A stretch of DNA of 64,000 nt from an uncultured SAR86 cluster bacterium (GCA_902587545.1 CACILL010000001.1:186001-250000), one strand, 5' to 3'; positions 57,829 to 63,186 are shown, counted from the stretch's first letter. The notes: generated from the sequence alone by a model not told the origin. A program made the numbers and translations.

Positions 57829-58815
57829 ATGAAATTCGATAATTTTTCAATCCAAGAGCCTGATGCAAATGTTAAGGTCAAAGATACCTTTGAAATAGAT
57901 TCAAATTTAAAAGTAGATTCCTTTTCAGAAAGCAATGAATATGTTCCAAAGTTGGATGCTGACTACTGTTTTGATAAGGCTACTACTCTTTCTATTCTTG
58001 CAGGTTTCCAGAATAATCGGAGAGTGATGGTCCAAGGACTTCATGGTTCAGGAAAATCAACTCATATTGAACAGGTTGCTGCAAGATTAAATTGGCCTTG
58101 TATTCGAATCAATTTAGATAGTCATATCAGCAGAATAGATCTACTGGGTAAGGATGTGATTGCTATTGAAGATAGTAAACAAATAACAAAATTTCAAGAA
58201 GGCATTCTACCCTGGGCTATCCAAAACCCAGTTGCTTTAGTATTCGATGAATACGATGCCGGTAGACCAGATGTAATGTTTGTCATACAAAGAGTTTTAG
58301 AGGTCGAAGGTAAACTTACTCTTTTAGATCAAAACAGGGTTCTTACCCCTCATCCTTATTTTAGACTTTTTGCCACAGCAAACACTGTAGGCTTAGGAGA
58401 TAGCACTGGTCTGTATCATGGGACTCAACAAATTAATCAGGGTCAAATGGATAGATGGCACATCGTTTCGCCGCTAAATTATCTTTCTGAGGATTTGGAA
58501 CTCAAAGTAATTCTTTCAAAAGTTAAAGATCTAAATAACAAAAAAGGCCAGTCTACTGTAAAAGCAATGATTTCACTTGCTAATTTAACAAGAGAAGGTT
58601 TTAAAAATGGAGATATTTCTAATCTGATGTCACCAAGAACTGTTATTAGCTGGGCAGAGAACTTTTCAATTTTTAACGATATTGGGAATTCATTTGAATT
58701 AAGTTTCTTGAATAAATGTGATGAAACTGAAAAATCAATAATTGCAGAGTACTTTCAAAGATGCTTCGATTCAGAAACCAGCGATTCTATTTTAAATTTA
58801 GTTGAACAAGCTTGA
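57829..58815 (+). CDS. CobS-like AAA+ ATPase
   Basis: AAA+ ATPase of 328 residues that strongly resembles CobS, the ATPase of aerobic cobaltochelatase. Walker A is GLHGSGKS (70-77), Walker B VFDEYD (138-143), with a sensor-1-like [12 protein letters not shown] and a final Arg-rich segment ([12 protein letters not shown]). The N-terminus (to about 45) is the CobS-type extension. The next gene starts within its stop and is CobT-like, as in alphaproteobacteria. Neither CobN nor any B12 gene is in the window. CobS/CobT relatives of the MoxR/VWA kind also activate other metalloenzymes, so I give no symbol. Confidence 0.82.
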
Positions 58816-60563
58816 GCCAAAAATCTACTGAACAAAACGTCAAAGATGTAATAAATGCTTCCAGTAGAGCAATATCTAAAGATAAGGATCTTAATCTAGA
58901 AGTAAATTATCTCCAGCAAGTCGCTGAACCTGGACATAATCTTCAAGAAAATATTGAATCCATTCAACTTTCAAGAGGCGATGCAGACAGACAAGCTCTG
59001 TTACAAAAATATAAATTACTCGAGAAGCCATTAAAAAGAACTGGAATTTCTGAGTTGGATTTTCTCCTTAAAGATTTCGAAGCCGTAAGGTCAGAAATTT
59101 TAGGATCAAAAGAATTTTTGGGTGTAAAACAAAACCTTAGAAATTTATTTTTAAAAAATCTCTCTCAACAAACGATTGAAAGCAAGCAAGATGCCTTAAA
59201 AATAGCTGTTGAGATAAGTTTAAAAAATAAACTTTTAAAACAAAAGAATAATAAGCTGGAGGAGGTTTTCTTAAAACCTTGGGAAAAAGCTCTTTCTGAA
59301 GTGGAGTCAGATTTTAAGCTTGCAGAAAAGTATCTGACAGATAAAGAAAAATTTAATGAGTATTTAATTTCCTTATTTAAAAAATTAGGTTTTGAATTTG
59401 AAGAGCCTGAACAAGAAGAGCCTAAATCTGATGCCGAAGAAGAAAATGAAGATAATGAAGATGATGGTACTTCTGACCAAGAACAAGAAGATCAGCCTGA
59501 TAACGATGCCTCAGAAGTAGATGACGAGAGTGAGACTGAAATTGAAGATTTTGAGATTGAAGAAGGAGATGTTGATGACACAGAAGACTGGGTTGAAAAT
59601 AGGTCTAAACTAGAAGAATTAATTGCACTCAATCAAAATCAAGAATACAAGGTATTTTGTAGAGATTTTGATGAAGTGGTAGATGCGGATAACTTATGTT
59701 CTTCAGAAGAATTAAAAAGATTGAGAGATAGATTGGATCAATTAATTGATCCCTCAAAATCTGTAGTAGCAAAATTGGCAAATAGACTGCAAAGATTGCT
59801 TCTGGCTCAACAAAGACGTTCTTGGGAATTTGATAAGGAAGAAGGCATTTTGGATTCTTCTAAACTGCACAAAATCATTACGGATCCACTTACACCCCTT
59901 AGTTTTAAAACCGAAAAAGAGACATCCTTTAAAGATACTGTGTTAACAATGTTGGTTGATAGCTCTGGATCAATGCGAGGAAGATCAATGACCACTGCTG
60001 CGATTTCTGCTGATATTATCGGGTCAACTTTGGACAAATGTAATATCAAAACTGAAATCCTTGGTTTTACAACGAAGCATTGGAAAGGTGGAGACTCCAG
60101 AAAGCTTTGGGTTGAATGCGGTAAACCAAGTTCTCCTGGCAGGCTTAATGACTTGAGACATATTATATTCAAACCTGCTGACCTAGCTTGGAGAAGAGCT
60201 AAAAAAAATCTAGGCTTGATGCTTCGAGAAGGTCTACTTAAGGAAAATGTTGATGGAGAAGCTCTTTTATGGGCTTCTTCGAGATTGTTGAAAAGGCCAG
60301 AACAAAGAAAAATACTCATGGTTATTTCGGATGGAGCGCCCGTGGATGACAGTACTTTATCCACTAATTCAACCAGTTATTTAGACAATCACCTAAAACA
60401 AGTGATTTCTGAAATTGAAAATCGAACCGAACTAGAATTAATTGCGATAGGGATTGGGCATGACGTTACAAAATACTATAAAAAGGCTGTAACAATCCAT
60501 AGGGCTGAAGAACTTGGAAACGTAATGTTGGAACAATTAACAGACTTATTTCAAGAGAAATAA
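58812..60563 (+). CDS. CobT-like VWA protein
   Basis: CobT-type partner of the preceding ATPase; 583 residues. Residues 1-190 are the helical CobT N-domain. Residues 196-260 are extremely acidic (Glu/Asp-rich), as in CobT. The VWA domain (about 373-583) has an intact MIDAS: D-S-S-G-S at 383-387, a Thr/Asp pair later, and VISDGAP. The start is TTG at 58812, overlapping the cobS-like stop (TTGA); no better start lies nearby. Coupled translation implies a stoichiometric complex. The diiron gene begins 37 bases downstream. A cobalt-chelatase role is possible but unsupported by context. Confidence 0.82.
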
Positions 60564-60566
60564 GGT

Positions 60567-60594
60567 TTGGAATTCTAGAAAAGAGGCTTATAAT
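60567..60594 (+). promoter_or_regulatory. Sigma70-type promoter, probably giving a leaderless diiron-protein mRNA
   Basis: TTGGAA (60567-60572), a 16-base spacer and a perfect TATAAT (60589-60594). The ATG at 60601 is 6 bases after the -10, exactly where transcription should start, so the message would be leaderless. No Shine-Dalgarno lies between. It sits right after the cobT-like stop. Confidence 0.6.
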
Positions 60595-60600
60595 TTACTT

Positions 60601-61749
60601 ATGAAAATTACAAATGTAGACGGACCTCCTGGATTTAAGGAGTTCGATGATATTGAAGATCGTATGACTTCAGAGCATGTTGAAGATGTTAGAGAAATCT
60701 TCAACACCCCACTAACTGGATCTTATAACTGGGATTACACTGTAGCCGATAACAGAATCAAAAGGCTTTACGAATTAGGAAAAGAGCTTAATTGGAATGG
60801 ATCAATAGACCTTGATTGGTCTAATCACATAAAACGTGGCGATCTTCCGGTAAAACCTGAGTTTGATGATTTAGGTAATGTCTATCCTGAATATAATGAC
60901 ATGTCAGAGGATGAAAAAAGGGAAGTTAGTTGGCACGCTTCTGCTTGGGGTTTAAGCCAATTCTTACATGGAGAACAAGGGGCTCTTTTAGTTGCTTCTC
61001 AACTTGTATCTTGTGCACCTACATATCAAGCAAAACTATATGCCGCCTCTCAATGTTTCGATGAAGCCAGACATGTAGAAGTATTCAATAGGTATTTACA
61101 AGATGTAATGGGCATGTCTTACCCGATTTCCCCTAGCCTTAAAGCGCTTTTAGATAAGGGTCTAACAGATCCGAGATGGGATCTTAAATTCATTGCAATG
61201 CAAATAATCATTGAAGGTTTAGCTCTTGCAGCTTTTCAATCAACCAAGATGAGCACAAGTTGTCCGTTGCTTAGAGATTTAACTCATTATGTAATTCGTG
61301 ATGAGGCAAGACATGTAACCTTTGGTATAAATTACTTAGAAGATTTCAATAAGACTTTATCTGAAGATGAGATTGAAGATCGAGCTAGATTTGCCTATGA
61401 AGCGTGCGTAATCATGAGAGACAGAATTCAAAATTACGAATTAGGTAAGAAATTCTTTGGTTACTCAGAACAAGAAGCCAGGGAAGCAATCTTAAAATCT
61501 GGTGTTAATGATGACTTTAGAGGCTTGTTATTTAACAGAGTGATGCCTAATTTGAAGAAAATTGGACTCTTAACAGAATCTGTTCGTCCTCTTTATGATG
61601 AATTGGGCTTATTAGAATACGAAGTTGCTCCAAGTGATTTTGAAATAGATTGGGCTGAAATTTCCAAACCTTTAGAATCTTCTGACGAGATTGAAACTCA
61701 AGCAGAGGAACAAGCTGAAGTTATCAAGGAAATGTTCCACAACCATTAA
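60601..61749 (+). CDS. Ferritin-like non-heme diiron protein, unknown function
   Basis: A 382-residue protein with a ferritin-like four-helix diiron site. Candidate ligands in order are E125 (HGEQG), E155 and H158 (DEARH), E205 (IIEG), E235 and H238 (DEARH). This is the E/EXXH/E/EXXH layout of RNR-R2-like, AurF-like and related oxygenases. No radical Tyr assignment can be made and no signal peptide is present. It resembles uncharacterised marine ferritin-like proteins and, distantly, the arylamine N-oxygenase AurF. The acidic, Gln/Glu-rich C-terminal 30 residues end EMFHNH. It follows the CobS/CobT-like pair and precedes a 2OG oxygenase. Oxygenase, oxidase or desaturase activity is possible. 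Confidence 0.72.
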   Translation: MKITNVDGPPGFKEFDDIEDRMTSEHVEDVREIFNTPLTGSYNWDYTVADNRIKRLYELGKELNWNGSIDLDWSNHIKRGDLPVKPEFDDLGNVYPEYNDMSEDEKREVSWHASAWGLSQFLHGEQGALLVASQLVSCAPTYQAKLYAASQCFDEARHVEVFNRYLQDVMGMSYPISPSLKALLDKGLTDPRWDLKFIAMQIIIEGLALAAFQSTKMSTSCPLLRDLTHYVIRDEARHVTFGINYLEDFNKTLSEDEIEDRARFAYEACVIMRDRIQNYELGKKFFGYSEQEAREAILKSGVNDDFRGLLFNRVMPNLKKIGLLTESVRPLYDELGLLEYEVAPSDFEIDWAEISKPLESSDEIETQAEEQAEVIKEMFHNH

Positions 61750-61769: not shown

Positions 61770-62369
61770 TTGATAGATTTCAATAAACTTCAAAGTGCTG
61801 AGGTAGATAAAACTTATTACCCTTTCTTTTCTCTTGATAATTGCCTTTTAGATAATCCATCTTGTGTTGCTTTAGCTAAAGATTTTCCGGATATCAAAAG
61901 TGGTGGGAGTATTCCTCCATCTTCTATAAATCTTGAAGAAAGTATTAAAAAATTAATTTCCGATCTTGAAAGTGAAGAAATGAAAGCTATTCTTGAAGAA
62001 AAACTAAATGTTGATCTTTCTAATTCTGAAATAGTTACCACATTAAGAGGTTTTTCTAGAAAAAAGGATGGAAAGATTCATACCGATTCAAAATCTAAGA
62101 TCATTACACTTCTTTTATATCTAAACGAATCTTGGGAATACGAAACCGGAAAGTTGAGAATGTTAAAGAATGAAGAACACCTAGATGATTTCATAAAAGA
62201 AATTCCTGCCACTTTAGGTAGCATTGTTGCGTTTAAGGTGACTGAAAATTGTTTTCATGGATTCTTACCTTTTGAAGGCAAAAGACAGTCTATACAAATG
62301 AATTACGTGTATAGAAAAAATGTTAAAACTCACAAATTAAGGCATTTTCTAAGCTCTTTATTTAAATAG
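61770..62369 (+). CDS. 2-oxoglutarate/Fe(II)-dependent oxygenase family protein
   Basis: A 199-residue protein with a double-stranded beta-helix core. The iron facial triad is H104-x-D106 (KIHTDSK) and H163 (NCFHGF), and R172 (GKRQS) is placed to bind 2-oxoglutarate. LLLYLNESWEYETGKLRML is the usual strand between them. The probable start is TTG at 61770, 20 bases after the diiron gene. The substrate is not known; it could be a protein side chain or a small metabolite. Two different iron oxygenases side by side suggest one pathway. Confidence 0.72.
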   Translation: MIDFNKLQSAEVDKTYYPFFSLDNCLLDNPSCVALAKDFPDIKSGGSIPPSSINLEESIKKLISDLESEEMKAILEEKLNVDLSNSEIVTTLRGFSRKKDGKIHTDSKSKIITLLLYLNESWEYETGKLRMLKNEEHLDDFIKEIPATLGSIVAFKVTENCFHGFLPFEGKRQSIQMNYVYRKNVKTHKLRHFLSSLFK

Positions 62370-62382
62370 AAAACTTTTTCTT

Positions 62383-63186
62383 ATGAATGAAATTGATGTC
62401 GGCGTTGATTTCGGAATTACAAATTCTGATATCGCGATCAAATCAGATGAATCTGTTTCTTACAAAACTTTAAACAGTGAGAAAAATATCCATTTATCTT
62501 TTAATAATATAATTAAAGATCTTCAAAGAAATTCTATTCTAAAAAATATATGCGTTACAGGAGGAAAACATCTAGATCTTCCTGATAATTTTGATGGATT
62601 AAAAGTTTCAAAAAAGAATGAGATAAGTTGTATTGGTGCTGGGGCCAAATATTTGTCAGGACTAGATTCTGATTTCCTTGTTTTAAGTTGCGGTTCAGGA
62701 ACAGCATGTGTTGGATATAAAAATAAAATCTCAACTCATCTTGGGGGTAGCGGTTTAGGTGGAGGAACTATCAGAGGGCTTTGTAAATTAGCTGCGCAAG
62801 TTGATGATCCTGAAGAAATTGATGAGTTATCAAAAAAAGGAAGTCAAATTGGAGATTATGTTTTAAAAGATGTTGTTTCCGGTCCTATTGGTTTTCTTCC
62901 TGATGACAGTATTGCTGTGCATCTTGGAAACTTAGATATGATTAATAAATTAGAAAAAGAAGATATTTGTAAGTCTATAATTTATCTAGTCGCTACAAAC
63001 ATAGCTCGCTTAGCTGCAACAACGGCAATTTCCTTTAGCTTAGATAAAATAGTTGTTGTAGGCAGGTCTCCAAATTATTCCTTGTACACGGAAGTCCTGA
63101 AAAGATGGATAGAATATTCTGGTTTAGAAGTTATCTTTTTGAAAGATGGAGAATTTGCTACTGCAATTGGTGCTTTAGAAAGCTAA
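62383..63186 (+). CDS. Type II pantothenate kinase-like protein
   Basis: ASKHA-fold kinase of 267 residues that looks like type II pantothenate kinase (CoaW/eukaryotic type), which phosphorylates pantothenate in CoA synthesis. The N-terminal phosphate loop is GVDFGITNSD; then CVTGGKHLDLP, LSCGSGTACVGY, and HLGGSGLGGGTIRGL (about 124-138), followed by VVVGRSPNYSLY and a C-terminal FATAIGALE. The spacing follows Staphylococcus aureus CoaW closely. This type is rare in Gram-negative bacteria, where CoaA or CoaX is usual. panB and panC at 36-37.6 kb give the pathway context. No symbol is given because activity is inferred. Confidence 0.68.
   Translation: MNEIDVGVDFGITNSDIAIKSDESVSYKTLNSEKNIHLSFNNIIKDLQRNSILKNICVTGGKHLDLPDNFDGLKVSKKNEISCIGAGAKYLSGLDSDFLVLSCGSGTACVGYKNKISTHLGGSGLGGGTIRGLCKLAAQVDDPEEIDELSKKGSQIGDYVLKDVVSGPIGFLPDDSIAVHLGNLDMINKLEKEDICKSIIYLVATNIARLAATTAISFSLDKIVVVGRSPNYSLYTEVLKRWIEYSGLEVIFLKDGEFATAIGALES

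Follow-up and report, generated by a model that had tools for sequence, protein, structure and literature searches.

The CobS-CobT-diiron locus

The window, the whole 64,000-nucleotide stretch of DNA analysed here, comes from the genome of a SAR86-cluster gammaproteobacterium (1.13 Mb, 85% complete), a member of an abundant surface-ocean lineage, and carries three consecutive genes for a CobS-like AAA+ ATPase, a CobT-like VWA protein, and a ferritin-fold diiron protein (Table 1). The stop codon of cobS and the TTG start of cobT overlap by 4 nt (TTGA). The same overlap is found in three other loci that we read in the window's own family, f1 (f1 to f4 are arbitrary labels for families within the SAR86 order), and in the sponge symbiont AqS3, and the junction at the remaining loci read is a gap or a shorter overlap. 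The diiron gene starts 37 nt downstream of the cobT stop. A preliminary description of the sequence had listed a CobS-like ATPase with intact Walker motifs, a translationally coupled CobT-like protein with an acidic linker and a MIDAS, and a ferritin-like diiron protein 37 bases on, and all of these are borne out, with a ligand set in the diiron protein that is invariant among its homologues. In a comparison of the window with a congener, dN/dS comes to 0.014 (cobS), 0.026 (cobT), and 0.0075 (diiron gene), values low enough to indicate genes in use; all three are intact and under purifying selection.

Table 1. Features of the CobS-CobT-diiron module, in window coordinates.
Feature	Position	Strand	Evidence
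CobS-like AAA+ ATPase, 328 aa (CobS_N + AAA_5)	57829..58815	+	ORF, profile matches, structure alignment
Walker A GLHGSGKS (CobS residues 70-77)	58036..58059	+	sequence
Walker B ALVFDE (CobS residues 136-141; VFDE core)	58234..58251	+	sequence
CobT-like VWA protein, 583 aa, TTG start	58812..60563	+	ORF, profile matches, structure alignment
Acidic linker of CobT (about residues 196-262)	59397..59597	+	sequence
MIDAS DxSxS motif DSSGS (CobT residues 383-387)	59958..59972	+	sequence
Promoter-like TTGGAA-16-TATAAT in the cobT-diiron gap (37 nt); weak evidence	60567..60594	+	counts vs shuffles
AurF/R2-like ferritin-fold diiron protein ('type A'), 382 aa	60601..61749	+	profile, model, homologue alignment
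Six predicted metal ligands E125, E155, H158, E205, E235, H238	span 60973..61314	+	invariance in 47 homologues; model helices

Directly 3' of the diiron gene lies a 2OG-Fe(II) oxygenase-like gene (61770-62369), which has a weak match to the YhhC maturase model and which, among the loci read, stands beside the diiron gene only in the window and in genome G059. It is followed by a type II pantothenate kinase-like (PanK-like) gene (62383-63186) that is found near the module in most of the order.

Relationship to cobaltochelatase and B12 synthesis

The two proteins resemble their counterparts in the aerobic cobaltochelatase CobN-CobS-CobT: they belong to the CobS and CobT families, their alignments with the solved cobaltochelatase subunits CobS (9ujv, E = 1e-141) and CobT (9uka, E = 2e-142) cover almost the entire protein, their Walker and MIDAS motifs are intact, and their genes are adjacent. 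However, both fall below the equivalog cut-offs of the corresponding subunit models, although the matches are full length: CobS scores 518 bits against TIGR01650 (cut-off 559) and CobT 552 bits against TIGR01651 (cut-off 759). The N-terminal half of the SAR86 CobT is also far more divergent than its VWA domain; residues 374-582 alone account for 358 of the 479 bits scored by whole CobT, so that conservation resides mostly in the VWA half.

The pair also differs from cobaltochelatase in what accompanies it. No CobN (PF02514) was found in the window's own genome, in any of the 39 high-quality genomes of the order, or in 120 of all 121 genomes searched. The sole CobN-like match in the order is a partial gene on contig C55 (L061) of G080, an f4 genome that is 64% complete and in 70 contigs, and it is possibly contamination. 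The corrin pathway was searched by its CbiC (CobH) step, common to both corrin routes, and CbiC was found in none of the 121 genomes. B12-binding domains score above the cut-off in 19 of the 121, and none was found in the window's own genus, which retains CobST all the same. CobT itself is present in 89 of the 121 genomes. The absence of CobN and CbiC while CobT is kept indicates that CobST is decoupled from B12 in SAR86, and on CobN and corrin-pathway features the pair fails to qualify as a cobaltochelatase. The preliminary description had called this an orphan pair because no CobN was in view; the searches of the genome itself and of the order agree, and that the pair is an orphan CobST unconnected with B12 is well supported. 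We therefore reject a role in B12 synthesis. CobS and CobT are easily taken as markers of B12 synthesis, and their persistence in SAR86 without CobN or CbiC shows that such an annotation can mislead, as it does here.

Two explanations that would keep the pair within the B12 pathway, present or past, have to be weighed against these absences. CobST could still help to metallate corrins or tetrapyrroles if a CobN-like large subunit escaped the search or comes from outside, a reading encouraged by how close CobS and the VWA domain of CobT are to true cobaltochelatase subunits and by a proposal in the literature that CobST of viruses may take over the CobN of their hosts (PMC8651126), but the near-complete lack of PF02514, the complete lack of CbiC, and the failure to find a B12-binding domain in the window's own genus make it highly unlikely. 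Alternatively, the genes could be decaying relics of a B12 pathway that has been lost, as the disappearance of CobN and CbiC might suggest; this is barely credible for genes that have intact motifs, evolve with dN/dS of 0.01-0.12, and are retained in 89 of 121 small genomes, and on dN/dS and motif integrity we reject it.

Conservation of the gene order in SAR86

Among the matches listed, 86 of 89 CobT genes are followed by a same-strand diiron gene, with a median of 68 nt between the end of the CobT domain match and the diiron gene. Direct inspection of G057 found a diiron gene downstream of CobT there too, and G088 and G039, whose CobT matches are incomplete and seem to be truncated by the ends of their contigs, were left out of the evaluable set, in which the linkage holds for 87 of 87. 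The pair thus stands beside a putative metalloenzyme gene, a feature of NorQ/NorD-like systems, throughout the order. No inserted gene was found within cobS-cobT-diiron in the 21 neighbourhoods that we read gene by gene. On its left, cobS is bordered in these loci by cysE, tesB, an SDR gene, or a gene without a name, and on its right the diiron gene is bordered by a PanK-like, 2OG-oxygenase, subtilase, BaxI-like, NosD-like, or other gene; the flanks on both sides have been rearranged repeatedly while the three genes remained contiguous throughout.

This bears on an explanation in which CobST remodels proteins independently of B12 but acts on a client whose gene lies elsewhere, such as a different metalloenzyme or a respiratory complex, with its adjacency to the diiron gene reflecting an ancient gene order and slow rearrangement in streamlined genomes. 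The repeated reshuffling around an unbroken cobS-cobT-diiron core weighs against it, but tesB and PanK-like genes also stay close to the module in most of the order, so that adjacency alone is partly general synteny, as a client elsewhere would allow. Another possibility is that the pair is a conflict or stress module, anti-phage or of a chaperone-type MoxR/VWA kind, with the diiron gene as a mere neighbour. A survey of NTP-dependent conflict systems deals with MoxR and VWA proteins (PMC7159879), a weak NCBIfam match to an anti-phage ATPase is present, and CobST homologues are carried by phages; nevertheless, inheritance through the order is vertical, and a fixed locus with very low dN/dS is unlike typical defence islands, so we regard this explanation as improbable.

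Some loci depart from the simple arrangement. In family f2 (L066-L070, L081), cobT is followed by a tandem pair of divergent diiron paralogues, the first of which falls in a separate clade. In G030 (L075), there are two entries for the cobT-adjacent diiron gene, which looks either split or partly duplicated, and one of the matches is reported to contain two in-frame TAA codons. Two congeners, G031 and G051, were at first read as a joint loss of CobT and the adjacent diiron gene; because tesB is also missing from both, an assembly gap is equally likely, and we dropped this reading and counted neither genome.

The diiron protein and its distribution

The diiron protein has a weak match to PF11583 (AurF), 36 bits against a cut-off of 29.6. 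Its predicted ligands (E125, E155xxH158, E205, E235xxH238) sit on four long helices (103-138, 142-170, 193-218, and 222-250) of an AlphaFold2 model with a mean pLDDT of 86, which gives the four-helix bundle with E, ExxH, E, ExxH ligands that is characteristic of AurF/R2lox-type proteins. The best Foldseek matches are the R2 subunit of ribonucleotide reductase (RNR), R2-like ligand-binding oxidase (R2lox), and aldehyde-deformylating oxygenase (ADO). What AurF, R2lox, and ADO share with the SAR86 protein is the predicted ferritin-like four-helix diiron site; otherwise, the Foldseek matches listed are all distant, with identity of at most about 19% and a TM-score of about 0.4-0.5 by query length.

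The family extends well beyond CobST. It occurs in many Alcanivorax and Halieaceae genomes, and CobT is absent from 25 of the 28 sampled non-SAR86 genomes that encode a close homologue. Within the order, the listed genomes of family f4 contain no CobT, and this family keeps the type A diiron orthologue without CobST; in the f4 genome G076, the type A gene is still at the tesB/SDR locus from which CobST is missing. Strict co-occurrence of CobT and the diiron gene is thus rejected, and both the outside genomes and f4 lend weight to a client encoded elsewhere. If CobST does serve the type A protein, it must help without being indispensable, or else these genomes have other means in its place. We also considered whether the f4 diiron gene evolved faster after CobST was lost, which is suggestive at most, the excess over tesB being only mild. 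A second paralogue, type B, lies between dnaB or alr and pyrG with no CobST nearby; in three SAR86 families (L082-L092) the order is rplI-dnaB-alr-diiron-pyrG-DAHP synthase family-eno.

Control of the diiron gene

The preliminary description had given the diiron gene its own promoter. A promoter-like TTGGAA-16-TATAAT is indeed present in the gap after cobT, but such sites are as frequent in shuffled sequence (14 observed, 14.1 in shuffles) and the TATAAT -10 is only 6 nt upstream of the diiron ATG, so that the element stands and its function as a promoter is doubtful. Independent control of the diiron gene is better supported in f3 relatives, where the cobT-diiron gap holds a palindromic putative operator, AATGTTTACANTGTAAACATT (also given as TGTTTACANTGTAAACA). 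With one mismatch allowed, a search of 30 genomes found 21 copies of this palindrome, spread over 11 genomes of which 10 belong to f3, compared with 3 for the reversed control (L073, L076, L077, L080, L173, L194, L197, L204-L206, L209; L340-L349). Elsewhere it is found in the interval separating a TetR-type gene from an RND pump operon, and ahead of genes for a TolC homologue and for a 90-96-aa secreted-looking protein; none was seen upstream of cobS in f3 and none is present in the window's own genome. A site common to the diiron, TetR/RND, and TolC genes places the f3 diiron gene in a small efflux-type regulon, and the enzyme may therefore act on lipids or on compounds that are hydrophobic or toxic.

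Orphan CobST outside SAR86

In AqS3, CobST also lies beside a diiron gene, in divergent arrangement and with a 142-aa ORF between, and no CobN was found in this genome. A linkage outside the order counts against the idea that the client is encoded elsewhere. AqS3 CobT is the closest to the SAR86 clade among those compared, however, and AqS3 may be a near relative, so that its linkage amounts to one further observation whose independence is not proven. In the class sample, 10 genomes outside the order have strong CobT matches, of which eight lack CobN and two have it, and no diiron homologue was found beside orphan CobST in the neighbourhoods read there, AqS3 excepted. That orphan CobST is common in the class without a diiron neighbour is what a client elsewhere would predict, and there is precedent: AAA+/VWA chelatase subunits without a large subunit and with no known function have already been noted in bacteria (PMC9227772). 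Taken with the distribution of the diiron family, this makes a client elsewhere a real possibility, somewhat below an even chance and slightly behind the diiron enzyme. The neighbours of CobST in other gammaproteobacteria (L146, L149, L152, and L153, whose genomes the CobN search covered, and L237) include aldehyde dehydrogenase, NAD synthase, and phosphotransacetylase genes.

A possible client for CobST

Since the pair is kept without CobN or the B12 pathway, and always directly before the diiron gene, it probably serves a client other than B12 synthesis. The diiron enzyme is the leading candidate, and maturation of this enzyme by CobST is plausible but unproven; we would give it close to an even chance, though short of one. 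For it are the conserved and exclusive adjacency, the selection on all three genes, the absence of CobN and CbiC, and a canonical diiron ligand set. Against it are the 25 of 28 homologue-bearing genomes without CobT, the loss of CobST in f4, the paralogue encoded elsewhere without CobST, the f3 operator on the diiron gene and not on cobST, and an adjacency that is partly synteny. The earlier proposal that the pair matures the adjacent diiron protein therefore gains from the conserved linkage, which extends to AqS3, and from the missing CobN, and is weakened by the diiron genes that do without CobT. The two checks on which it could have fallen, for CobN and B12 genes in the genome and for the linkage in relatives, left it standing.

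In the model that we propose, CobS and CobT would together make up an AAA+/VWA remodelling machine that no longer takes part in B12 synthesis and acts on a protein client, most likely the diiron enzyme encoded next door. A CobS hexamer would hold the VWA domain of CobT, the MIDAS of CobT would bind the client, and ATP-driven remodelling would open the four-helix bundle and allow the metal pair to be inserted or replaced. Complex formation, client identity, and metal insertion are inferred, and the mechanism is drawn by analogy from NorQ/NorD and the non-haem iron of nitric oxide reductase.

NorQ/NorD insert non-haem iron (PMC13036017, PMC9976466), and their likeness to the SAR86 pair is one of design: a MoxR-type AAA+ protein with Walker A and B motifs and a VWA partner with a MIDAS, beside a non-haem iron enzyme. 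The subfamilies differ, however, CbbQ/NorQ-type matches are weak, and the candidate client in SAR86 is a soluble-looking ferritin-fold protein. CbbQ/CbbO and RavA/ViaA share the AAA+/VWA architecture for remodelling or activating other proteins, but the CbbQ sequence match is again weak and the clients are unrelated. A literature search for SAR86 together with CobS, CobT, or cobaltochelatase found no paper, and within the literature searched the conserved SAR86 CobST-diiron module and its regulation appear to be undescribed. Should the diiron protein prove to be what CobST acts on, this would be a chelatase motor that metallates a soluble diiron protein, a new class of client for chelatase-type AAA+/VWA motors, and the role of orphan CobST, cellular and viral, would become directly testable with three small genes. 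In a broader version, which is speculative and rather unlikely, SAR86 has converted CobST into a machine dedicated to loading metal into a soluble diiron oxygenase or to repairing it, and the widespread orphan CobST of other gammaproteobacteria and of tailed phages could be explained along the same lines.

Diiron genes of tailed phages

At least 134 marine viral contigs in IMG/VR encode a relative of the diiron protein, and the best 80 of these (L242-L321), which are 54-61% identical to the AqS3 query, were examined. Sixteen viral representatives fall together in a single clade, with full support, that nests with type B sequences of SAR86 and with those of AqS3 and Halieaceae. Genes around the viral diiron gene include a SbcC/SbcD-like nuclease, a late sigma factor, a major head protein, a tail sheath, and a terminase; the head, tail sheath, and terminase genes identify the carriers as tailed phages, and gene context separates several phage groups. 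The diiron gene was not found in isolate phages in INPHARED, no family for it was found in PHROGs, and it is a candidate for an undescribed auxiliary metabolic gene. In one phage group, CobS and a CobT-like protein (annotated 'peptidase') are encoded within about 8 kb downstream of the diiron gene, and CobS was seen in 8 of the best 80 loci. CobST is a common gene in tailed viruses (PMC8651126), so its proximity to the diiron gene in phages is by itself weak evidence of a connection. In one phage group, a sequence that differs from the f3 operator by two mismatches also lies 32 nt upstream of the diiron start codon (position 7945 in L244, L248, and L249, and 7888 in L250), as if the phage diiron gene answered to a host repressor.
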